NCBI RefSeq assembly: GCF_030123505.1
Contig: NZ_CP126115.1
Span: 4,478,001 to 4,542,000, forward strand
Direction of reading: 5' to 3'
Length of the DNA stretch: 64,000 nucleotides
Source of the DNA: Neobacillus sp. YX16
GTDB lineage: Bacteria; Bacillota; Bacilli; Bacillales; Cytobacillaceae
Of this stretch, positions 27,385-44,270 are shown one piece after another. Position 1 is the first letter of the stretch. Each line of letters starts with the position of its first letter. The notes beneath the pieces are model-generated. The model did not search any database. It was not told the DNA's origin and was given only the letters and a program-made list of their open reading frames with translations. The position numbers and the translations under genes are program-made.

Positions 27385-27897
27385 TTATTGATCGTACTTC
27401 TTTACCATTCCATATAATTGGGCTGATGTAACCGGACCATTGTAATGCTCTCTTATTACTCCTTGTCTATCGATGACAAACGTTTCTGGCTGCCCTGTAA
27501 CATTATACTTTTTTGCAATTTTGGAATTGTAATCAAATACATAGACGGCAGGCGTGTTATATTTTTCGAGGAACTTTTTCACTCGGTCCATTGTTTCGCC
27601 CTTGTTAATCATAATTAATCGGTATTGATCGCCGTAGTCCTTTGCAAATGCCTCAAGTTCAGGAGCTTCATCCACACATGGTTTACACCAAGATGCAAAA
27701 TAATTTAAGATGATTATTTCGCCTTTGTAATCAGAGAGCTTCGTATTGGTTCCATCTAAATTTGGTAATTCGAAATTATAGGCTTGGTCACCGACATCGG
27801 TATTGTCACCTTTACTAGCCAAACTATACCCAAAAAAGCCAAACATTCCAATTAATAGAAACAATACGAGTAAGTTTATGACTCGTCTGCTCATCAT
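27385..27897 (-). CDS. Membrane-anchored thiol-disulfide oxidoreductase, CcmG/ResA-like
   Basis: Thioredoxin-fold protein of about 170 residues with one N-terminal membrane anchor, so the catalytic domain faces outward. The active site WCKPC follows ILNYFAS, and the cis-Pro loop is TGQPETFVID. It should keep the CxxCH cysteines of apocytochrome c reduced for heme attachment, as CcmG and ResA do. The open frame starts at TTG 27912, but ATG 27897 follows TTAGGAGGAAGC and is better. It is the last gene of the ccm operon, which argues for a CcmG role. Confidence 0.92.
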   Translation of the reverse strand: MMSRRVINLLVLFLLIGMFGFFGYSLASKGDNTDVGDQAYNFELPNLDGTNTKLSDYKGEIIILNYFASWCKPCVDEAPELEAFAKDYGDQYRLIMINKGETMDRVKKFLEKYNTPAVYVFDYNSKIAKKYNVTGQPETFVIDRQGVIREHYNGPVTSAQLYGMVKKYDQ

Positions 27898-27915
27898 GCT
27901 TCCTCCTAACAACCC

Positions 27916-28053: not shown

Positions 28054-28815
28054 CTAGTTTTCAAGTCTTTCACGTAATTTTTCTTTGTACTGGTCAACTT
28101 TAACTTTCATATTTTCAAAGGATACACCCTTATGAAGAAGGTAGGCATAAAGGAAAGTAAAGGCCGTAATCGTTACCAATAAAGCAACGAGCATACTAGG
28201 TGCTATTCCACCGCCTTGTTGTGATGGACCATCTCCAAATACGATTGGATGGAATTTAGATTGCCACCAGCGAATCGCAAAGAAAACGATGGGAACATCC
28301 GCAAATCCGATAATTCCAAATACTGCAGCTAATCTAGCTTTCTTATCCCAAACACCATCCATCTGTCGAACCATTAAATATGCTACAAAAAGGAAGAAAA
28401 GGATTAGTGTAGTTGTTAGGCGTGGCTCCCAAGCCCACCATGTATTCCATGAAGACTTTGCCCAAATAGGACCTGTCGTTAATACAATGATTGTAAATAC
28501 AACACCAATTTCAGCAGATACATAGGCGTATGTATCATAAATTCGTTTGCGTTTTATTAGAAATAAAATACTGAAGACAAATGTTACAAAGAAAGCTAAA
28601 AATGCTACCCATGCTGATGGAACATGCATATAAAATATCTTTTGTACGGCTCCCATTGTCTTTTCTATTTCTGCATAAAGGAAAATAAAGTAGAATGCCG
28701 CCAACATGGTAGCTACCATACCGCCATATAATATTTTGGTAAGCAGCGAACTTTTTATAGGTGCCAAATCTGTCACCTCTAGTGGCGCCTTTTCTCTTTC
28801 AAGATTCATACTCAT
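28054..28815 (-). CDS. ccmC: Heme handling protein CcmC
   Basis: 253-residue polytopic membrane protein (six helices) of the heme-handling protein family. It carries the tryptophan-rich loop WNTWWAWEPRLTTTLIL, where the usual Asp is Glu, and the flanking His in FYMHVPSAW that ligands heme. In system I it loads heme onto CcmE together with the CcmAB ABC transporter. It starts four bases after the ccmB stop codon. Many cytoplasmic Lys/Arg residues mark the C-terminal tail. Confidence 0.94.
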   Translation of the reverse strand: MSMNLEREKAPLEVTDLAPIKSSLLTKILYGGMVATMLAAFYFIFLYAEIEKTMGAVQKIFYMHVPSAWVAFLAFFVTFVFSILFLIKRKRIYDTYAYVSAEIGVVFTIIVLTTGPIWAKSSWNTWWAWEPRLTTTLILFFLFVAYLMVRQMDGVWDKKARLAAVFGIIGFADVPIVFFAIRWWQSKFHPIVFGDGPSQQGGGIAPSMLVALLVTITAFTFLYAYLLHKGVSFENMKVKVDQYKEKLRERLEN

Positions 28816-28818
28816 CTA

Positions 28819-29493
28819 TTAAACCTCCAGAACGTACTCAATTAGTAAAAAGCATAGTACAAAGAAAATTACATCATAGGCGGCGACCAATTGCAGCCAA
28901 GCAATAGCACTTGGTAATTTCTCCATATTAGTAAGAATGATTTTTGTTGCTTGGGTAACACCGATTAATACCGGGCTTGTCATTGGGAAGAGCAAAAGCG
29001 GTAATAACATCTCACTGCTCTTGGAATTGGAAGCTAATGCAGCCAAGAAAGTTCCAATTGCAATGAATCCAAAACTCCCAACAAACAACACTAAGATAAA
29101 ATATAAAATACTGCCATTCACTTTAAAATCAAATAATAAAAATAGGAAGGGAACCGCGACAATTTCTACAATTAATATCATCGAGAAGTTTGCCATGAAT
29201 TTGCCTAAATAAATACTAGAGGCTTCCATTGGTGCAACCAATAAACCATGCATAGTATCATTTCGCTGCTCAGAAACTAACGAGCGATTAAGGCCTAAAA
29301 TTCCCGAAAATACAATGATTATCCAGACAGCACCTGGAATCACTGCTTTTGTCGTATTGTTTGCTGGATCAAAAGCAAAGCTTAGGACTAAGATGACTAG
29401 CCCAGCAAATATAATCATCGTACCCAAAACTTGTTTTGTTCTGAGTTCAGAATAGATATCTTTTTTTGCAATTGTGAGGGCTGCTCTAAACAT
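28819..29493 (-). CDS. ccmB: Heme exporter/ABC permease CcmB
   Basis: 224 residues with six membrane helices; the family segment SLVSEQRNDTMHGLLVAPME is present. Permease half of the CcmAB ABC transporter needed to release holo-CcmE. Its ATG overlaps the ccmA stop codon (TAATG), which implies coupled translation. Confidence 0.95.
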   Translation of the reverse strand: MFRAALTIAKKDIYSELRTKQVLGTMIIFAGLVILVLSFAFDPANNTTKAVIPGAVWIIIVFSGILGLNRSLVSEQRNDTMHGLLVAPMEASSIYLGKFMANFSMILIVEIVAVPFLFLLFDFKVNGSILYFILVLFVGSFGFIAIGTFLAALASNSKSSEMLLPLLLFPMTSPVLIGVTQATKIILTNMEKLPSAIAWLQLVAAYDVIFFVLCFLLIEYVLEV

Positions 29494-30200
29494 TATGATA
29501 CTCCCTCCACTAACACCTGGTATTTTTCAGAAACTAAACCTAATGATTTATTATTGATGCTAAAATCATCAGCTATCTTTCCGTTCTTCACAATAATAAT
29601 TCGATCACAGATTTCAGCTGCTTGTTTGAAATCGTGAGTAACCATTAATGTGGTACATCCCTTTTCTTTCATGGAAAGAATAACATTATTTAGAATCGTA
29701 ATCGCACCTTGATCCAATCCTGTATGAGGTTCGTCTAGAAGCATGATTTTCGGCTCATGGATAATGGCCCTTGCTATCGCAATCCTTTGGATCATTCCAC
29801 GCGAGAAATTCTTTACTGGTTCATTAATGAAGAATGACAAGCCTACCTCTTTTACCAATTGTCTTGCTCTATTTTCAACATCCTTGACACCATATAACTC
29901 GCCAAAAAACAGTAAATTTTCTAGTGGTGTGTAATGATCGTAAAGCAAGCTGGAATGCGGTAAATATCCAAACAGTTTTTTCACTTCTATATGATCCTTT
30001 TTAAGATCCAATCCGTTAATTTTCACAAGGCCTGAAGTAGGCTTTATTAATGTTGCCAGCACTTTTAAAAGTGTACTTTTTCCCGCTCCATTTGGACCAA
30101 GAATAGCAACTGTTTCACCTTGTTTGACGGATAGGTCAACACCTCGAAGAATTAACTTATTGTCGGCTTGCTTTGTAAGCTTCTTTATTTCAATCATCAA
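29493..30200 (-). CDS. ccmA: Heme ABC exporter ATP-binding subunit CcmA
   Basis: 235-residue ABC ATPase: Walker A GPNGAGKSTLLKVLA, signature FSRGMIQRIAIARAI, Walker B IMLLDEPHTGLD and the switch His in MVTHDFKQAAEI. The signature is FSRGM rather than the common LSxGQ, as in known CcmA proteins. It energises release of heme-loaded CcmE with CcmB. Start codon choice between two adjacent ATGs is open. Confidence 0.95.
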   Translation of the reverse strand: MMIEIKKLTKQADNKLILRGVDLSVKQGETVAILGPNGAGKSTLLKVLATLIKPTSGLVKINGLDLKKDHIEVKKLFGYLPHSSLLYDHYTPLENLLFFGELYGVKDVENRARQLVKEVGLSFFINEPVKNFSRGMIQRIAIARAIIHEPKIMLLDEPHTGLDQGAITILNNVILSMKEKGCTTLMVTHDFKQAAEICDRIIIVKNGKIADDFSINNKSLGLVSEKYQVLVEGVS

Positions 30201-30220: not shown

Positions 30221-31216
30221 TTACTCTACAAATTGGCGTAAATTCATCTTAACTTGTACTAAATGCTGCTTATATGCAGAAAGTTTGGCTTGATAATCCT
30301 CTTCTGTCATATTTCCATCATCGAAATTTTCTTCTAATTCAAGGATTTTATCCATAATTGCTTTTTGCTTAGCCATTAAATTCTTAAATGCATTTTCTTC
30401 CGTGTCAGCACCAAGTCTCTTCTCTTCTGCTCTTGCCTTCATTCTAAAGTAAGCAAAATAGGAGAGCGCTGCGATAATAATGGCAGCCATTACAATTAAG
30501 AAAACATGTGGATCCCAACTTCTCAGCGGAGATTGTGACCACATACGAAGATGACCAGGGTTATGGAAGGCCGGTGCTGTTTTTGTTACATTCCCACTAG
30601 TTTCACTGACACCTTGTTCTGTAGAACCTTGGGCTTCACTTGTTGATGGCTGTTTATCTTTGTCATAAATCATTGTAAAGGCTTGTTTTGCTTGGATGCC
30701 TTCAACACTGTATCCCTGATAATTTTGATCATCCATCTTGAATAGCCCTTGATTGGTGGCAGTAATGTTCTTAAATTCAATACTACCCATTCCCTCAGGA
30801 ACAAGAATTTGCACCATTTGAACAGGATAGTTGAAGCTTAGGTTAATTTCCTCACCCTTTGAGATTCTGTAGCTATATGGCAAAACAACGGTCTGATTGG
30901 CTGGGATAGGATCTGTTGTGATGAAGCCTGTATCAACCTGTTTTTGAGCAATTTTGTTATCTAAAAAGGTAAATCCTGTTGCTCCTGTCGGAATAGTGAC
31001 ATTTAGTACTGCTTCATCCTTGCCGTCACCTTTAATTTCCTCTGCTGAAGTATTGGTATAGTTCACCATATTCATCATATTAGTTGACCCATCTTCTGCA
31101 GGGCTGACGACTAGGTAGTGCATATCAACGGATATCGCTGATTCCCCTGCCGCCATTCCATTTAATGGAATGATCAGCAGCAGTCCGAGGAGGAAAACGG
31201 TGACTTTCTTAATCAC
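30221..31216 (-). CDS. Unrecognised secreted, membrane-anchored protein of the ccm operon
   Basis: 331 residues: signal peptide (to about 22), an extracellular beta-rich domain (about 25-185), a low-complexity Ser/Thr/Glu linker, a membrane helix at about 243-262, and a cytoplasmic helical tail containing DDGNMTEEDYQAKLSAYKQ. I do not recognise the extracellular domain. Its layout (secreted domain, helix, short cytoplasmic tail with a G-x-(I/M)-T-x-E-x-Y element) is the same as that of the protein at 34585-35655. Its ATG overlaps the ccmI-like stop (ATGA), so it belongs to the operon. A role in apocytochrome or heme handling is inference only. Confidence 0.8.
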   Translation of the reverse strand: MIKKVTVFLLGLLLIIPLNGMAAGESAISVDMHYLVVSPAEDGSTNMMNMVNYTNTSAEEIKGDGKDEAVLNVTIPTGATGFTFLDNKIAQKQVDTGFITTDPIPANQTVVLPYSYRISKGEEINLSFNYPVQMVQILVPEGMGSIEFKNITATNQGLFKMDDQNYQGYSVEGIQAKQAFTMIYDKDKQPSTSEAQGSTEQGVSETSGNVTKTAPAFHNPGHLRMWSQSPLRSWDPHVFLIVMAAIIIAALSYFAYFRMKARAEEKRLGADTEENAFKNLMAKQKAIMDKILELEENFDDGNMTEEDYQAKLSAYKQHLVQVKMNLRQFVE

Positions 31217-31599
31217 TTTCCTCCCCCCTTATTATTCTTATGACTCTTCATTGTCTCTTCAATTTCACTTTCTATTTCAGCCATTAAATCCTTGTCAACT
31301 GATTGAGATGTTATTTGCTCTTCTTCTTCCTTCATAATGCTGACAACTTGGGATTCATATTGCTTCTTTAGATTTTTGTAATCTACGTGGGAAATTTTAT
31401 CCATCTTATATTCAAACTCTAGTTCATTCAGTGTGGATAAAAGCACTTCTTTATTGGAAGCAGAATCCTGACCCTTATTCGCAAAACTTAAATATGAATT
31501 CCATGAAAAGAAGGGTGCAAGAACAAGTAATAAACAAATGAGCACAAGAGCTGCGGTAAATATCATTGTAATGATCGAGATTTCTTGCATTATGTTCAC
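31213..31599 (-). CDS. CcmI-like N-terminal membrane protein
   Basis: 128 residues: an N-terminal membrane helix (about 9-29) and a charged cytoplasmic part with LLSTLNELEFEYKMDKISHV followed by DYKNLKKQYESQ. That segment matches the signature of the short CcmI-type proteins (L-x-E-L-E-x-D-x-x-x-G-K-I-x-x-x-D-Y). The TPR region of proteobacterial CcmI, which binds the apocytochrome tail, is absent. Lies between ccmH and the unrecognised anchored protein. Confidence 0.7.
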   Translation of the reverse strand: MNIMQEISIITMIFTAALVLICLLLVLAPFFSWNSYLSFANKGQDSASNKEVLLSTLNELEFEYKMDKISHVDYKNLKKQYESQVVSIMKEEEEQITSQSVDKDLMAEIESEIEETMKSHKNNKGGGK

Positions 31600-31602
31600 A
31601 TC

Positions 31603-32106
31603 CTAAAGATACTTTTTGCGTTCTTCTTCAATCATAGATGAGAGAATTTCTTCTTCCACCTCATCCTTTTCGATTTCATTGTCCAGGGTTAATTCATCCG
31701 TTCCTTTTTTCTTCACCCATTTACGAATGATGAAGTATACTGCCACACCTGCTATAGCCAAAGCCGCAAAAGGCATTATCCAAGCAACTAAACTGAACCC
31801 GCTTTTTTCTGGGGCAGTTAAAATTTCTTCACCGTAAATATTGACATAGTATTCACGAATCTTGTCTTTATCCCAGCCCTTATTCATCATTCCAACGATG
31901 TCTTCCTTAAACCCAATTGTAAGATTACAAGTCTTAGGATCGCATTCAAAATGGTCTTGACCACAGCCGCAGGTACACATGAATTGAGACGCAGCTGCTT
32001 CGAATTCCTTAGATTTGTAATCGAACTCTTTTGCCTCTACTTGAAAAATCGATGCCTGAAAAATAAAGGCTATTAGAAGGAGTCCAATATAAATTTTATT
32101 TTTCAC
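31603..32106 (-). CDS. ccmH: CcmH-like cytochrome c maturation protein
   Basis: 167 residues: signal sequence (to about 25), a small outward-facing domain, one membrane helix (about 103-122) and an acidic cytoplasmic tail. The thiol site is the unusual cluster MCTCGCGQDHFECDPKTC (Cys44, 46, 48, 55, 60) instead of the usual LRCxxC; the following helical hairpin ends MMNKGWDKDKIREYYVNIYG, typical of CcmH/NrfF. GTG 32106 is preferred over earlier codons in the frame, because GAGGTG lies 8 bases upstream and the signal peptide then starts correctly. It begins one base after the ccmF stop. Confidence 0.88.
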   Translation of the reverse strand: MKNKIYIGLLLIAFIFQASIFQVEAKEFDYKSKEFEAAASQFMCTCGCGQDHFECDPKTCNLTIGFKEDIVGMMNKGWDKDKIREYYVNIYGEEILTAPEKSGFSLVAWIMPFAALAIAGVAVYFIIRKWVKKKGTDELTLDNEIEKDEVEEEILSSMIEEERKKYL

Positions 32107-32107
32107 A

Positions 32108-34090
32108 TTAAGACACCTCTTTGCGTACTCCCGTGTATCTTGGAGTAATATTTTGATATTTTCCATTCCACACTGCAAACAGTGATCCGATAACAATCAT
32201 AAAGGATCCAATCCATAGCCAAGCAATCATTGGATTAACTTTTACAATAAAGGTTGCTTTTCCATCATCTTCCCAATCACTTAATACAACGTATAAATCC
32301 TCTTTTAAGGATGTGATTAGTCCAACTTCTGATGATGGCTGGTCCCAGTTGCCATAGAATACTTTTTCAGGCTGGATATTTCCAATACGTTTACCGTTTT
32401 TGAAAACTGTCATTTCCGCATAAACGATATCATTAATACCTTCCTTTTTTTGATCAAGACGCTCGTAATTAATACGGTAATCCTTCAATTCAATGGAATC
32501 CCCTAAGTTTACTGTTTTCATAGTTTGTACATCATAGTTTTGCGAACCGATAATACCCATTGCGATAAACGCTATACCAATATGGACAATGTAACCCCCA
32601 TAGCGCCTGCGGTTTTTTGTCATCAAGCGATAAAGTGAAAGATAAACTTTTTCACTTGTCATTTTCCTTCTTGCTTTAACTCCACGATAAAACTCAAGGA
32701 AGTGAGTAATGAAGAGAAGAACAATAACTCCAAAGCCAATAACTGCCCAAGCTTTTTGTATTCCAAGTACAACCATTAAAGCCATTGCTGCAACGGCAAG
32801 AATTGCTGGAATAAGGAAGTTTTTCTTTAAGTTTTTTAATGATGACCTTTGCCATGCAAGTAATGGACATACCGCCATTAAAAACATCATAGATAATAGA
32901 ATTGGAGCTTGAACGGTATTAAAGAATGGCATCCCTACTGTAACCTTTGTACCGCGTACAGCTTCTGATACTAATGGGAATACTGTTCCCCAGAACACAC
33001 CAAACGCCGCTCCCACCAACAATAGGTTATTAATTAAGAAACTGCTTTCTTTTGAAATATAGGAATTGAACTCACCTGCACTACGTTTAAGCAGATTGTA
33101 CCGGCTCATTAAGACATACAATGCCCCAATAACCATTACACCCATAAAGATTAGGAAGTATAATCCTAGATTTGAGTTGGCAAATGCGTGAACCGATGTA
33201 AGAACACCACTTCGTACAAGGAATGTTCCAAATAATGTTAATGCATAAGAAGTAATGATTAAGCTTATGTTCCAAATCTTTAACATGTTTTTCCGTTCTT
33301 GAATCATAACTGAGTGTAAGAACGCAGTTGCTGTTAACCATGGCATGAAGGATGCATTTTCAACTGGATCCCATGCCCAGTAACCGCCCCAGCCAAGCTC
33401 GATATAAGCCCACTGGCCGCCAAATATATTACCTAGACTTAAAAACAACCAAGCAATAATAGTCCAGCGTCTAGTCATTTTAATCCAGAAGTCATCCACG
33501 TTTTTCAATAAAAGTGCTGCCATTGCAAAGGCAAATGGTATGGCGAGACCTACATAACCAAGGTAAAGTGTAACAGGATGGATAATCATTCCCGGGTTTT
33601 GCAGCATTGGGTTTAAACCATGACCTTCAATCGGAATTTGATCCAACAGTATAAATGGTTTTGCAACAAATCCAAGGATTAAAAAGAAGAATACGATATT
33701 TCCTAATAGAATGGCGGAAATATACGGAACCATTGGATTTCCTCTCATTTTGCGCGAGAAGGAAATCATTACAGTGTAAAGAACTAGGAAGAAAGTCCAT
33801 AATAGCAATGAGCCTGAATTCCCCGCCCAGAGTGCTGTGAGTTTGTAAATAATCGGAAGCTCACTGCTAGTGTAATCAGTAACATATTCATATTGAAATT
33901 GTGATGTAGCTAGCAAATAAAATAAGGACAGCATTGCCATAGAGGCGCAAACTAGGATAGCGATTACTCCACCCTTACCGCTATTAATTAATTTTTGATT
34001 TTTAGTGCTAATCCCCAGCGTGATGATGAGGAGTGAATAGATTGCAAGCGCTAGGCCTACATAAATTGTTGCATTAGCAAATAAGTACAT
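32108..34090 (-). CDS. ccmF: Cytochrome c heme lyase subunit CcmF
   Basis: 660-residue polytopic protein (about 15 helices). The WWD heme-binding segment WGGYWAWDPVENASFMPWL is intact, with conserved His residues around it, and the large C-terminal extracellular loop holds NPMIAWLWIGSFMIVIGSLF. CcmF ligates heme from CcmE to the CxxCH thiols. It is the largest gene of the operon, 15 bases behind ccmE. Confidence 0.96.
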   Translation of the reverse strand: MYLFANATIYVGLALAIYSLLIITLGISTKNQKLINSGKGGVIAILVCASMAMLSLFYLLATSQFQYEYVTDYTSSELPIIYKLTALWAGNSGSLLLWTFFLVLYTVMISFSRKMRGNPMVPYISAILLGNIVFFFLILGFVAKPFILLDQIPIEGHGLNPMLQNPGMIIHPVTLYLGYVGLAIPFAFAMAALLLKNVDDFWIKMTRRWTIIAWLFLSLGNIFGGQWAYIELGWGGYWAWDPVENASFMPWLTATAFLHSVMIQERKNMLKIWNISLIITSYALTLFGTFLVRSGVLTSVHAFANSNLGLYFLIFMGVMVIGALYVLMSRYNLLKRSAGEFNSYISKESSFLINNLLLVGAAFGVFWGTVFPLVSEAVRGTKVTVGMPFFNTVQAPILLSMMFLMAVCPLLAWQRSSLKNLKKNFLIPAILAVAAMALMVVLGIQKAWAVIGFGVIVLLFITHFLEFYRGVKARRKMTSEKVYLSLYRLMTKNRRRYGGYIVHIGIAFIAMGIIGSQNYDVQTMKTVNLGDSIELKDYRINYERLDQKKEGINDIVYAEMTVFKNGKRIGNIQPEKVFYGNWDQPSSEVGLITSLKEDLYVVLSDWEDDGKATFIVKVNPMIAWLWIGSFMIVIGSLFAVWNGKYQNITPRYTGVRKEVS

Positions 34091-34105: not shown

Positions 34106-34576
34106 TTATTTTGCCGTTTCTGGTTCTGTTGGTGGCTGATCTAATAACTTTTTATGCGCTTCTGGATCATAGTTTTCAACATCTTCACCCTCATATTTAG
34201 AAGGACATCTTGTTTTAACTGTTTCAGCGACAAATGTATTTTTCTTAGTAGGTGCGCCTTGGAGAATAACAATGACACCTTTAGAGAAGTTATCTGGCCT
34301 TGTGCCGTTATGGATAACATGCATTAGGTTTCCTTCGTTATCTTCTAAATCAAACTTCAATTCGATTTTATCTGGGTTCCATTTAATAGATTCTTCGATT
34401 AAAAGACCTTCTACCGTTACAAAATCATCTTTATGTTTTTCTTGGTTAGCCAAAAGCTCTTTCATCGTTAATTCGATGCCGCTTGATCCTGGTGTAGCTG
34501 CCATAAGTAAGAAAACGATTGCCCCTGCGATAATAAATCCACCTAGCATAACGATTGTGTTCTTTTTCACACCCAT
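34106..34576 (-). CDS. ccmE: Heme chaperone CcmE, Cys type (CxxxY)
   Basis: 156 residues: N-terminal membrane anchor (about 8-26) and an OB-fold domain (EGLLIEESIKWNPDKIEL, then IVILQGAPTKKNTFVAETV). At the position where classical CcmE has HxxxY the sequence is CPSKY (Cys124 to Tyr128), the rare CxxxY variant known from Desulfovibrio and archaea, where the Cys binds heme covalently. The C-terminal tail continues with PEAHKKLLDQPPTEPETAK. It lies between an unrecognised anchored protein and ccmF. Confidence 0.94.
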   Translation of the reverse strand: MGVKKNTIVMLGGFIIAGAIVFLLMAATPGSSGIELTMKELLANQEKHKDDFVTVEGLLIEESIKWNPDKIELKFDLEDNEGNLMHVIHNGTRPDNFSKGVIVILQGAPTKKNTFVAETVKTRCPSKYEGEDVENYDPEAHKKLLDQPPTEPETAK

Positions 34577-34584
34577 TCACCCCA

Positions 34585-35655
34585 TTAAATTAATTTTTTC
34601 ATTTCTTCATCGTAGGTTTCTTGATCAATCTTTCCAGTTAGAAGCTTTTTACGTAATTCCTTTTTATCGTCAACACTAATTGACTTCGTTTCTTTTTTAC
34701 CTTGTTGCTTTTTTGGGTGTTGAATCGCTGCTTTAGAACTAGGTGCTTTAGGTGCAGAATATGATTTTCCTTTTAACCCCAAGTAAATAAACACACCAGC
34801 TATGATGATGGCGATTCCAATTACGACTGCACCCCCAATTCCTATTATTGGCCTGTCAGAGTTACTGCCTGTTGTTGTGCTGCCGCTCTTACCATTAGTA
34901 AGTTGATCTGTTGCTGTACCATTAACACCAGTATGATTTTCATCATTGGGTGGTTGTTTCTCATTTATAGCGTCTAGAGTAGATTTGAAACCATCTTTTT
35001 GATAGGAAAATGAATATTTATAGCTTTCTCCTACTTTTACATTTTTGTATTGGTAATAGAACAGCTCTTCACCATATTCACTTTTCGTATTGTTTGGCGC
35101 CTTCGGCTCTAATGTAATCTCTTTTGCCTCCATTGGAGCATAGAAGATTACATCTAATGTTCCAATCTCTGTTGGGTTACTATATTCGTATGTAAAGCTT
35201 CTTTTATCCTTTACATCTACTGCGCTCGTATAATACTCGACAACGAATCTATATGATTCATTATTCTTAATTGCTTTTGAAGGTTTCCAAGAAATAGTTC
35301 CCTTTTCCTTATCTACATCAAATGGCCGTTGTACTTCGGGCTTATTGTCTTCAGGAAATTCAGCAACTAAGTACGCTTGGAAGCCTTTTTCACTAGCTGG
35401 AACAGCCAATTCAACTTTCCCATCAAAATCTTGCCCGCTTTTGTTTGTAAAAGTTCCATATTGTCCCACTAGTAAAGATGGGGTATCTTTTTCCCAACCT
35501 TCAGGATAATCAAACTCTGGCATTACCTGAATTTGCATCTCCGTATAGGGAAACTTCTCTGGCTGAAAGGTTGTTTCGGCCATAGCGTTTGAAATGATAA
35601 AACTTGATAAGAATGAGGTAATTACAAATAAAGCCAACAACTTTTTTTTAAGCAT
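34585..35655 (-). CDS. Unrecognised secreted, membrane-anchored protein heading the ccm operon
   Basis: 356 residues: signal peptide (to about 26), a beta-rich extracellular domain (about 28-215) with repeated aromatic segments such as EEYYTS-like VVEYYTSAVDVKDKRSF, a Gly/Ser/Thr linker, a membrane helix (about 270-292), and a basic tail ending in a SHOCT-like KKELRKKLLTGKIDQETYDE. I cannot name the extracellular domain. Its architecture mirrors the protein at 30221-31216. It starts the ccm operon, 8 bases before ccmE, so a role in cytochrome maturation is likely but inferred. Confidence 0.8.
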   Translation of the reverse strand: MLKKKLLALFVITSFLSSFIISNAMAETTFQPEKFPYTEMQIQVMPEFDYPEGWEKDTPSLLVGQYGTFTNKSGQDFDGKVELAVPASEKGFQAYLVAEFPEDNKPEVQRPFDVDKEKGTISWKPSKAIKNNESYRFVVEYYTSAVDVKDKRSFTYEYSNPTEIGTLDVIFYAPMEAKEITLEPKAPNNTKSEYGEELFYYQYKNVKVGESYKYSFSYQKDGFKSTLDAINEKQPPNDENHTGVNGTATDQLTNGKSGSTTTGSNSDRPIIGIGGAVVIGIAIIIAGVFIYLGLKGKSYSAPKAPSSKAAIQHPKKQQGKKETKSISVDDKKELRKKLLTGKIDQETYDEEMKKLI

Positions 35656-35972: not shown

Positions 35973-36626
35973 TTATTTTCCTTCTAATGAACGGATATAG
36001 GTTACAATATCCGTAATTTCTTCTTTCTCAAGCTGTCTTACTCCATCAAGACCCTTTAATGACGCTGCCATTCTAGTATCGTCGCGGCCATATGCTGTAC
36101 CAATCCAAATTTGCTTATCCGTAGTAAATTTCAAGAATTGTGGATTTGATAGAGCTGTTCCCATCTTTAATTTACCGCTGCCTGCTTCGCCATGACAGTT
36201 AATGCAATATAAATTATATAATTTTTCACCATTAACAATATTACCTGCAATTGTTTTAGGAACCTCAAAATCGATTTCTTCAGACTGCCAATTCCTAATA
36301 TAAGCAACAACATTATTTAATTCATCCTCTGAAAGTCTTGGTCCATAGCTTGGCATTCCTGTACCTTCTCTGCCAACTTTTACACTATTGAAAATGTCTT
36401 TGTTACTAACAGCATTTAAATACTGTTGATTATTAATGGCCGTGCCCGCATTTTTACCTTCACCTTTTCCATTTTCACCATGGCAAATCAGGCACTGCTT
36501 GTTATAAATCTTTTCACCTGCGGCAATAGCTTCACCATTCTTGCTGTTAAAAATATCACTATTAACGATACAAATAATAATGCCTATAAAGATAATGATG
36601 TAAAGGCCATAAAGTATTTTTTTCAT
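35973..36626 (-). CDS. Membrane-anchored diheme cytochrome c
   Basis: 217 residues: an uncleaved N-terminal membrane helix (about 4-21) and two class I cytochrome c domains. Heme sites are CLICH (about 45-49) and CINCH (about 141-145), with likely axial methionines in EGTGMPSYGP and DDTRMAASLKG. It is an electron carrier on the outer face of the membrane and an obvious client of the Ccm system. ATG 36626 lies 10 bases behind the stop of the selenoprotein frame, so the two are probably one transcript. Its partner oxidase or reductase is not in this window. Confidence 0.94.
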   Translation of the reverse strand: MKKILYGLYIIIFIGIIICIVNSDIFNSKNGEAIAAGEKIYNKQCLICHGENGKGEGKNAGTAINNQQYLNAVSNKDIFNSVKVGREGTGMPSYGPRLSEDELNNVVAYIRNWQSEEIDFEVPKTIAGNIVNGEKLYNLYCINCHGEAGSGKLKMGTALSNPQFLKFTTDKQIWIGTAYGRDDTRMAASLKGLDGVRQLEKEEITDIVTYIRSLEGK

Positions 36627-36636
36627 AGGTTATCCC

Positions 36637-37086
36637 TTACTTAGGTTCTGGCGTCGGAGTTGGCTCCCCAAAATCTTGATACTTCGTAGTGATTAAGTCA
36701 TATATTTTCTTAGGGCTTTTACCGTCTAAATGCATCTCTACCGCCTCCCGGGCGATATCTATACAGACGTCTCAGGATATACTCATTGAATCCCAGCCGG
36801 TAACGGCATTGTCTTCTCCAAATGAATCAATATAGCAATCCAGATTACTTTCATGCCCATCTTGTGCATAACAGCCGCAATAACAAGGAACACCTGCTAC
36901 TACTTCTGGGTAGTTCGATACCATAGCGTACGTTTCCTGAATTAAATCAGAAGAGTTTAAAACATAATCTGGTAATGGTAAATGCTTTTTATCTAAAGTC
37001 ACATCCGTCTCCTTGGAGTTACCGCAGGCTGCAATTAGTAGACCAATAGCCGTACAGAGAAACAAGAGAGAGAGAATTTTTTTCAT
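36637..37086 (-). CDS. PCYCGC-motif lipoprotein, probable selenoprotein (in-frame UGA)
   Basis: A 149-residue lipoprotein if UGA at 36774-36772 is read as selenocysteine (residue 105). Residues 1-20 are a lipoprotein signal with LIAAC (Cys21). The family motif VPCYCGC (Cys68, 70, 72) is followed by QDGHESNLDC (Cys84). The frame reaches WDSMSIS, then UGA, then DVCIDIAREAVEMHLDGKSP and a further 24 codons ending TPTPEPK-stop. In PCYCGC proteins I recall, a Cys occupies the UGA position, so the site reads UxxC instead of CxxC. A SECIS-like hairpin lies 21 bases after the UGA, and the extended frame ends 10 bases before the cytochrome gene. Simple truncation after residue 104 is the alternative. 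Confidence 0.85.
36731..36765 (-). promoter_or_regulatory. Bacterial SECIS-like hairpin
   Basis: Read on the minus strand: a 5-bp lower stem TGTAT/ATGCA, a symmetric AGA/GAG internal loop, a 7-bp upper stem TATCGCC/GGCGGTA and the apical loop CGGGA. The loop begins 21 bases after the UGA and has G at position 2, which fits the bacterial SECIS rules (distance roughly 16-37 bases, G early in a small loop). Confidence 0.75.
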
Positions 37087-37178
37087 TGCTGTGTCACCCC
37101 TTTTGTTTATATGTTTGTAATTCTACTTAATTTTAGCAAAAACTAATCAGCTAAATAGAAACTAATTATTACTATTTA

Positions 37179-37191
37179 GTGAAGTTTTCAC
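37179..37191. promoter_or_regulatory. Palindrome GTGAA-GTT-TTCAC upstream of the selenoprotein gene
   Basis: Perfect 5-bp inverted repeat about 95 bases before the start codon. On the minus strand it reads TTGTGAAAACTTCACT, resembling FNR sites (TGTGA-N6-TCACA, here one base short) or ResD half-sites (TTGTGAA). An oxygen- or respiration-linked regulator is inferred. Confidence 0.35.
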
Positions 37192-37230: not shown

Positions 37231-37267
37231 AAAAAACTAAGGCCATCCATTCAGGCCTTAGTTTTTT
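37231..37267 (-). terminator. Terminator of efp
   Basis: AAAAACTAAGGCC, 9-base loop, GGCCTTAGTTTTTT on the minus strand, directly behind efp. Confidence 0.9.
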
Positions 37268-42479: not shown

Positions 42480-44270
42480 ATGAGTAAAATAAGAGAACGT
42501 ATAAAGGTATATGAAATGACCTGTACTTCTTGTGAGAAACGGGTTGAGAGGACTGTGAAAAAATTAGATGGTGTCCTCGGTGTAAAAGCTAGTTTTAGCG
42601 GTCAATTTGCGGAAATTGAATATGATGATCATTTTTGCGATGTAAAAAAAATTAAAAATGCTATTGAAAGTGTAGGTTATAGTACTGAAAGCCCTAAAGA
42701 CTTTAAGTTTATTGGCATTATGATTGCAGTAGCAGCCGTTGTATTACTTGGAATCAACTCAGGGAATTACGATATGGAATCACAACTAAATAATGCTTCT
42801 TATGCTGTATTATTTGTAGTTGGAGTGATTACTTCTATCCATTGTGTAGGTATGTGCGGGGGAATCATGCTTTCTCAAAGTATTGGAAAAGAAAGCAAGA
42901 ACAAATTTGAAGCCATAAAGCCAGCACTTTTATATAACGCCGGTAGAGTGGTTGCATACACGGTATTAGGTGGGGTCATTGGTGCTATTGGTTCAGTTTT
43001 CGCCTTGTCCCTAACTGCTAAAGCAGGTTTGCAGTTATTTGCTGGTGTTTTCATGATTATGATGGGCTTTAATATGGCTGGTTTTAAGGCCTTTAGAAAA
43101 TTCCAAATTAAATTGCCAAATGTGGCTTGTAGGGCAATGAGTAAACCAAGAGCACCATTTTTTGTCGGACTTCTCAATGGATTAATGCCATGTGGTCCTC
43201 TACAAACCATGCAAATATTTGCACTAGGGACAGGCAGTGCTGTAGCAGGCGCCTTATCGATGTTTATGTTCTCTACTGGAACAGTCCCGCTCATGCTGAC
43301 ATTTGGAGCATTATCGGGGTTGTTGACCAAAGGGTACACAAAAAAAATACTAAAGTTTAGCGGTGTGTTAATCATTATGCTCGGCCTTATTATGAGTAAC
43401 AGGGGGCTTGCCTTGGCAGGCATGAATATCAGTCCAATGGCTATTATGTCTAGTGTGGGAGCCTTCGGTGATGCAAACGCCTCATCATCCTCATCCGATG
43501 AGATTAAAGCAACAATTAAAGATGGGGTTCAGATCTTGAATATGACTGCTAATGTTTATGGCTATACTCCAAAAACTCTTTATGTCCAAAAGGGAATGCC
43601 TCTTAAATGGGTTATTAAGGGTGAAGAAATTACTGGCTGTAATAATACGATTGTCGTGCCAGGTATGGAAATTCAACAGAAGCTGCAAAGTGGAAATAAT
43701 CTAATTGAATTCACACCAGGGAGTGAAGATCTTAATTTTAGCTGCTGGATGGGAATGAAGCGTGGAGTAATTAAAGTTGTAGATGATTTAGAAGCTATCA
43801 CGGCTTCAGACAGTGACGGAGACGGGATTGATTCTGCTGTTACTGCACCGCCAGCGGAACCTGCTCAGTCTAGTATCTACGGTGACGATTTTAGTAAGGT
43901 AGCGACAGAACGTTTAGTTAAAAAAGCAGAAGTGGCTGCTAACGAGCAGACAATTACAATAAAAGGAACTGGATATGAGTTTGAGCCGCTTATTATAGTG
44001 GTTAATAAAGGTGTCAATACAAAAATGGCTTTAGACCTATCAGCCTTTGATAATGCAGAAGGGTACTTTATGATTCTGAATTCATCAACAATGCAAATTG
44101 TTACCGATTTTACCGGTACAAAGGGGATCAATAATATTGAATTTACTATTAGTAATAGTGGTTCATATGGTATCTACCTAAATGAAACAGAATTACTTGG
44201 AATGATAGAAGTGGTTAATGATATAAATATAGTCGACCTAGAGGAAATTAGAGCTAAATACCTAAAATAA
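42480..44270 (+). CDS. HMA - SafE/TauE - cupredoxin fusion membrane protein
   Basis: 596 residues in a mosaic order: an N-terminal heavy-metal-associated domain (1-68, MTCTSCEKRVER), a six-helix sulfite-exporter/UreH-like membrane unit (about 78-310) with paired Cys motifs IHCVGMCGGIM and NGLMPCGPLQT, then two outward cupredoxin-like domains (about 345-440 and 490-580). The first keeps a likely copper site in LNFSCWMGMKRG; the second lacks the Cys. Between them lies a DSDGDGID acidic stretch. RBS GGTAGGG. Probably moves or inserts copper; the exact role is inferred from parts and from the neighbouring copper genes. Confidence 0.85.
   Translation: MSKIRERIKVYEMTCTSCEKRVERTVKKLDGVLGVKASFSGQFAEIEYDDHFCDVKKIKNAIESVGYSTESPKDFKFIGIMIAVAAVVLLGINSGNYDMESQLNNASYAVLFVVGVITSIHCVGMCGGIMLSQSIGKESKNKFEAIKPALLYNAGRVVAYTVLGGVIGAIGSVFALSLTAKAGLQLFAGVFMIMMGFNMAGFKAFRKFQIKLPNVACRAMSKPRAPFFVGLLNGLMPCGPLQTMQIFALGTGSAVAGALSMFMFSTGTVPLMLTFGALSGLLTKGYTKKILKFSGVLIIMLGLIMSNRGLALAGMNISPMAIMSSVGAFGDANASSSSSDEIKATIKDGVQILNMTANVYGYTPKTLYVQKGMPLKWVIKGEEITGCNNTIVVPGMEIQQKLQSGNNLIEFTPGSEDLNFSCWMGMKRGVIKVVDDLEAITASDSDGDGIDSAVTAPPAEPAQSSIYGDDFSKVATERLVKKAEVAANEQTITIKGTGYEFEPLIIVVNKGVNTKMALDLSAFDNAEGYFMILNSSTMQIVTDFTGTKGINNIEFTISNSGSYGIYLNETELLGMIEVVNDINIVDLEEIRAKYLK

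Follow-up and report, generated by a model that had tools for sequence, protein, structure and literature searches.

In the DNA of Neobacillus sp. YX16 examined here (64,000 nucleotides, hereafter the window), the gene at 36637..37086 on the minus strand almost certainly encodes a selenoprotein of the PCYCGC/CYCXC family, in which UGA codon 105 is predicted to be decoded as selenocysteine (Sec) to give a 149-residue exported lipoprotein with a UxxC site. The full account that we favor, in which this Sec lipoprotein acts as a surface oxidoreductase in the service of cytochrome c maturation (ccm), is likely on the sequence evidence laid out below. The features of the gene are as follows.

36637..37086, minus strand: PCYCGC/CYCXC-family lipoprotein coding sequence, 149 residues with UGA105 as predicted Sec (translation, PF13798)
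37024..37086, minus strand: predicted signal peptide up to the lipobox LIAAC with Cys21 (translation; Cys21 invariant in 50 relatives)
36871..36888, minus strand: PCYCGC motif, residues 67-72 (translation)
36772..36774, minus strand: in-frame UGA, proposed Sec codon, forming UxxC with Cys108 (TGA or Cys codon in 82/82 loci of relatives)
36731..36765, minus strand: putative bSECIS hairpin (fold, covariation, published model, loss in Cys forms)
36765-36761/36735-36731, minus strand: lower stem of the hairpin (5 bp)
36757-36751/36745-36739, minus strand: apical stem of the hairpin (7 bp)
36750-36746, minus strand: loop CGGGA, 21 nt after the UGA

The reading frame starts with an ATG at 37086, meets the TGA at 36774-36772 and stays open for 44 codons to a TAA at 36639-36637, which leaves 10 bases before a cytochrome c gene starts (ATG at 36626); the coordinates of the frame had been given exactly in an earlier sequence-only reading of the window. 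When the UGA is read as U, the site around residue 105 becomes SISUDVC. A Pfam profile search places the Sec protein in PF13798 (100.2 bits against a cut-off of 25), and with the NCBIfam model NF041379, named "CYCXC family (seleno)protein", it scores 67.7 bits, which is below the equivalog cut-off of 90. An open run of 44 codons has a chance of about 12%, (61/64)^44, and is weak evidence alone; the case for the tail after the UGA is strong because of its conservation and not because of the length of the open frame. For the 44 post-UGA codons of 34 sequences pN/pS is 0.166; from PCYCGC to the UGA it is 0.203, and the two wrong frames give 1.4 and 2.2. Purifying selection acts on the post-UGA tail, whose codons had looked like real protein in the sequence-only reading, and the in-frame UGA is followed by conserved coding sequence as is looked for in a bacterial selenoprotein.

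A bacterial selenoprotein is also recognized by homologues that carry Cys at the same column. PF13798 was searched in 100 related genomes and the gene was found in 75. The column was counted in 82 loci, that is 83 rows minus one 41-residue fragment lacking the Sec column (G025:C1:329207); they include a Cys locus placed by hand outside the pattern match (L005) and, among the TGA loci, a decayed-looking copy (L100). The codon is TGA in 57, TGT or TGC in 25 and anything else in none, which confirms what had been proposed, namely that the UGA lies where other PCYCGC proteins have Cys. The Sec form occurs in 52 of the 100 genomes; within the genus the gene is present in 54 of 60 genomes, 47 of which have the Sec form. 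A phylum sample of 398 genomes holds the gene in 8, including the already counted G000 and G099, and adds TGA in three (G118, G193, G455) and Cys in three (G210, G366, G446). A Chloroflexota locus (L041) has UGA at the same column. A scan of named genomes gave 3 loci, too few to count, the nearest being from Bacillus sp. 7884-1 (98%) and another from N. rhizosphaerae (74%). The decayed-looking copy is a second one in the YX16 genome itself (G000:C1:850918-851217), with a UGA; it lacks a signal peptide and its end has diverged, and genes for a metal ATPase and a regulator of ArsR type lie close by, as judged by eye.

A quick tree of the 82 rows, which has few columns and many open forks and leaves out L039, L040 and L100, needs at least four switches between Sec and Cys, three of them forced by well-supported branches. 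One Cys row that has lost the hairpin (L066) is grouped with five Sec rows at 98% SH-aLRT, and from its sequence it appears to be a natural Sec-to-Cys replacement. Since 13 selA-bearing genomes keep the Cys form alone, Sec is not required for function.

The sequence-only reading had described a hairpin of 5+7 bp with loop CGGGA, 21 nt past the UGA, and likened it to bacterial SECIS geometry; both the hairpin and the likeness are upheld. The 57-nt stretch folds at -18.2 kcal/mol (z -3.0), and 0 of 200 shuffles are as stable. Over 44 distinct sequences 91.9% of pairing cells can pair, compared with 89.0% in shuffles, and 11 cells are changed on both sides compared with 1.5. Three pairs show such both-side change, a number matched by 5 of 500 shuffles, and the covariation score is matched by 0 of 500. 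Pair 18-30 is C-G in 34 sequences, A-U in 6, U-A in 3 and U-G in 1, and pairs 19-29 and 21-27 have one double change each, both from the Chloroflexota locus. The published bSECIS model asks for a loop of 3-9 nt, an upper stem of 4-16 bp, a G within the first two loop bases, a spacing of 16-37 nt and an energy of at most -7.5 (PMC13188914). With L039 and L040 left out of all SECIS counts, 56 of 58 Sec loci fit this model and the other two (L049 and L061) fail the energy limit only. For comparison, it is passed by 22 of the 230 distinct TGA codons that end long ORFs and, among sites following Cys codons, by 31 of 600. The model is loose, and some hairpin also passes it in 5 of the 7 Cys loci of the genus and in 6 of 25 Cys loci overall. 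All but one of the 58 Sec loci form the top five hairpin pairs, the exception (L092) being in a shifted register, whereas 0 of 25 Cys loci do so, and the codons flanking the loop are nearly frozen among 45 distinct cores (GCC 45, CGG 43, GAG 45, GCG 40).

The selenoprotein had been staked on the presence of sel genes in the same genome, and selA, selB, selC and selD are all there. In the single 6.23 Mb contig, selA scores 561 bits, selB 344, tRNA-Sec 62 (anticodon TCA) and selD 403, all above their cut-offs. The genome's SelD carries its own UGA (AGUGCK) and its FdhA has one UGA; these other probable selenoprotein genes, and an FdhA-like broken frame, are placed as follows.

L139 4470-5521: SelD with UGA
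G000:C1:4148864-4150885: FdhA with UGA
6115872-6116624: FdhA-like gene, broken frame with TGA

A selA above cut-off is present in 78 of the 100 related genomes, so the statement that selenoproteins are rare in Bacillaceae fails in the neighborhood of this genome. The selA-positive genomes comprise 50 with the Sec form only, 2 with Sec and Cys, 13 with Cys only and 13 without the gene; the 22 selA-negative genomes comprise 10 with Cys and 12 without the gene, and none with Sec. Among the 75 gene-bearing genomes the association of selA with the Sec form has a Fisher p of 1.4e-6, a value that overstates independence because of kinship. All 52 Sec-form genomes have selA and tRNA-Sec, and 51 have selB above cut-off, the exception (G043) being a draft of about 720 contigs. 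In the phylum sample selA is present in the three Sec genomes G118, G193 and G455; among the Cys genomes it is present in G210 and G446, and none is above cut-off in G099 and G366.

It is against these observations that other readings of the UGA have to be weighed. If it were a true stop, the mature product would have 104 residues and the tail would be read by accident or never; three database proteins of 103-105 residues (P0006, P0026, P0043) do end just short of the UGA, yet the selection on the tail, the Cys column, the SECIS hairpin and the sel genes leave this reading hardly credible, and in these public records, at least, the gene has been cut short. Even less credit is due to a UGA that, through reassignment or suppression, stands for a different amino acid, or that is a sequencing error. 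A metagenome homologue (P0032) has Trp at the Sec column, either a true TGG or a TGA called as Trp, but in these loci TGA is the stop codon of 230 distinct ORFs, each at least 120 codons long, and is thus a normal stop, and an identical UGA in 52 separate genomes argues against an error.

Downstream of the gene lies an operon of System I type, whose members and upstream elements are listed here.

35973..36626, minus strand: cytochrome c with two matched heme domains (PF13442, 2 stretches)
34585..35655, minus strand: p356, conserved operon protein (no Pfam or NCBIfam match; in 52/53 operon-type loci)
34106..34576, minus strand: CcmE (PF03100)
32108..34090, minus strand: CcmF (PF16327)
31603..32196, minus strand: CcmH (PF03918; the listed TTG start overlaps CcmF and the true start is probably later)
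31213..31599, minus strand: CcmI-like (TIGR03142, 24.9 bits against a cut-off of 29.3)
30221..31216, minus strand: p331, conserved operon protein (no Pfam or NCBIfam match; in 50/53 operon-type loci)
29493..30200, minus strand: CcmA-like ABC ATPase (PF00005; TIGR01189, 130.9 of 131.6 bits)
28819..29493, minus strand: CcmB (PF03379)
28054..28815, minus strand: CcmC-type cytochrome c assembly protein (PF01578; TIGR01191 below cut-off)
27385..27912, minus strand: thioredoxin-like protein in the CcmG position (PF00578)
37231..37267, minus strand: 14-nt perfect inverted repeat and T run after EF-P, probable terminator at the boundary of EF-P and the Sec operon
37169..37185, minus strand: conserved 17-nt upstream element ACTTCACTAAATAGTWA (one match within the window)

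A terminator consensus scan with loops up to 8 has no entry at the inverted repeat. Of 58 genus loci (L015 and L075b left out), 53 carry the element ACTTCACTAAATAGTWA upstream of the gene, 40 of them exactly, 10 at one mismatch and 3 at two; the five gene copies sited elsewhere in their genomes lack it, and it is possibly an operator or a promoter. A promoter scan gave 2 sites where 3.7 are expected, from which nothing is claimed, and a candidate Fnr-like site was dropped, being present in just 10 of 54 loci. A nitrous oxide reductase (nos) operon, guessed from ORF sizes, was ruled out by Pfam. Near the operon, at 42480-44270 of the window on the plus strand, a fusion gene joins a heavy-metal-associated domain to a DsbD-type membrane region and, on a weak match, a cupredoxin-like domain. 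The genome also holds ResB (System II) and NrfA. Two reviews assign System II to Bacillota and give Proteobacteria, Deinococci and archaea as the home of System I (PMC3884852, PMC9145763); ccm genes near Neobacillus have been noted before, since ccmBCEFGHZ is named as missing in Aliineobacillus hadale and present in two compared strains (PMC11767280).

The link between the gene and this operon extends across the genus. At the 53 operon-type loci cytochrome c is next in 52 and CcmF is present in 51, the gaps being a genome without the operon (G033) and a contig end (G056). Over the 60 genus genomes, 53 have both the gene and CcmF, 6 have neither, one (G033) has the gene alone and none has CcmF alone (Fisher p 1.4e-7), where one genome counted as lacking both (G047) holds a CcmF fragment below cut-off; part of this co-loss could be explained by linkage alone. 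The seven Cys-form loci of the genus have unchanged gene order and similar spacing, and the Cys-form relatives of other genera belong to genomes mostly without CcmF. Some genomes depart from the common arrangement. In one (G005) the operon copy of the gene is reduced to a fragment and a complete Sec copy is found elsewhere, and in G033 (L077 / L147) the ccm operon has been lost between the Sec gene and SpoIIIAA, although that gene and the element upstream of it are both kept. In three others (G043, G020 and G051; loci L098, L099 and L104) CcmH is gone between CcmF and CcmI, with the Sec gene kept and the rest of the operon kept as far as the stretches reach; short CcmH-like end pieces are left in L098 and L099. 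A title cited in PMC3884852 reports Ccm systems that naturally lack CcmH, so the loss of CcmH beside a retained Sec gene does not prove a replacement.

Resemblance to CcmH itself was followed in both fold and sequence. CcmH structures head the Foldseek lists of two predicted models, with weak fold scores in the range of common helical arrangements. Rows of similar Z, such as a designed zinc dimer (9k5h, 4.8, above CcmH in its list) and a coronavirus Nsp3 domain (4.0), were taken as common arrangements of this kind. The Sec protein gives no match to the PF03918 profile, which among 50 relatives is matched by one at E 0.049, and the family profile against PDB sequences has a best E of 0.44. The redox motif of CcmH, named as LRCxxC (PMC12285233), is absent from the Sec protein, which has PCYCGC and SxUxxC. 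In the Neobacillus CcmH (window 31603-32196, minus strand) CTCGCGQDHFECDPKTC replaces LRCxxC, and the CxCGC motif is also found in the Sec protein. Homology by sequence was rejected: hhalign gave 91.4% and 88.6% for CcmH versus at most 3.4% for 31 control profiles, but the signal collapses to 2.1% with CxCGC masked, to 5.2% with only the post-motif part and to 3.9% with all Cys masked, when the CcmE control, at 9.6%, is above CcmH. The match is not counted as proof because masking of Cys removes it. CcmH is the best, though weak, structural match of the two models and a companion in the operon; the Sec protein differs from it in having a lipoprotein anchor in place of a C-terminal membrane helix, and in lacking PF03918 and LRCxxC.

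UxxC, like CxxC, is usually a redox motif. The Sec protein is probably a selenol/thiol-disulfide oxidoreductase on the outer face of the membrane, by analogy, because its UxxC has CxxC orthologues. We give even chances to the proposal that in Neobacillus it serves the System I ccm operon, which draws on linkage, co-loss and the weak fold match; against it count the Sec gene of G033, whose genome has no CcmF, and the Cys forms of other genera, which mostly do without CcmF as well. In such a mechanism SelA, SelB, tRNA-Sec and SelD would decode UGA105 under the direction of the SECIS inside the coding sequence, and the membrane-anchored lipoprotein so produced would bear both a PCYCGC cluster and a UxxC site. 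Sec105, Cys108 and the PCYCGC cluster would then undergo redox cycling at the outer face of the membrane, where apocytochrome CXXCH thiols or an operon partner would be reduced, perhaps on a CcmH-like helical bundle.

The same selenoprotein might instead handle metal or heme, as a Cys/Sec-rich surface chaperone for thiophilic metals without a part in cytochrome c disulfide exchange. This we hold unlikely though worth keeping in view: Sec genes sited away from the operon have among their neighbors a CsoR-type repressor with a metal ATPase (L042), an ArsR-type repressor with a metal ATPase (L049), and SBF and LMWPc genes read as arsenic resistance (L044), and SCO1 is near L056 and a COX2/cupredoxin protein near L041. 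Against it speak the genus-wide co-occurrence of the gene with CcmF, the usual redox nature of the motif, and the neighbors of the Cys form, which by eye have no constant partner. Copies beside metal-efflux, SCO1 and COX2-like genes suggest from their setting that the role may extend more broadly to thiol or metal sites. That the Sec codon acts mainly as a selenium sensor, with an early stop when selenium is lacking and loss of coupling to the cytochrome c start, would suit the distance of just 10 bases between gene end and cytochrome c start; it is very improbable, for the seven Cys-form genus loci share the gene order at similar spacing, and the arrangement is therefore independent of Sec.

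Our account of a Sec lipoprotein tied to ccm can be set beside what is known of the family. A table in a 2026 review has the entry "CYCXC family protein (hypothetical protein OS_HP4), PF13798, UxxC, 1" (PMC13188914), a 2022 review also includes OS_HP4 with UxxC (PMC9312934), and a PCYCGC protein of Parageobacillus is presented as a lipoprotein of unknown function (PMC13068155). The sequence-only reading had called this a probable new selenoprotein and knew of no characterized one with the domain. The UxxC selenoprotein with its bSECIS is well backed by the sel genes, the Cys column and the hairpin, but novelty does not extend to the family, which is already tabulated as UxxC (PMC13188914) and modeled in NF041379. 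Compared by model and table entry, the present protein is like CYCXC/OS_HP4 in its Pfam family and its single Sec in UxxC, and differs in scoring 67.7 against 90 bits and in heading a Bacillaceae ccm operon. With the Cys PCYCGC (lipo)proteins of Bacillaceae (PF13798) it shares the lipobox, PCYCGC and the later conserved Cys, while those have Cys for Sec, no SECIS hairpin and no constant neighbor seen. Literature searches, whose coverage took in few subscription papers, returned nothing for Neobacillus with selenocysteine and only a rice study for selenoprotein, cytochrome c maturation and CcmH together; for CYCXC/OS_HP4 only unrelated plant papers came up beyond the two reviews, and the main text of deep-Sep (PMC12013277) does not mention OS_HP4, CYCXC or Neobacillus. 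On this modest evidence the ccm-linked Neobacillus branch of PF13798 selenoproteins appears to be so far undescribed.

Within a single Bacillaceae genus, 47 of the 60 genomes have a Sec-coding gene, which is shortened in at least some public records, and sister species in which Sec is swapped for Cys offer a natural test of why selenium is retained. A selenoprotein family of unknown function would also be tied to a concrete pathway, cytochrome c maturation. More tentatively, and with the odds against it, the Sec protein may be a CcmH-like lipid-anchored selenol oxidoreductase that stands in where CcmH is deleted, so that PCYCGC proteins would be CcmH-related surface redox proteins. If this is true, Neobacillus would have a selenium-dependent branch of cytochrome c maturation, with this oxidoreductase at the head of a Gram-positive System I operon.
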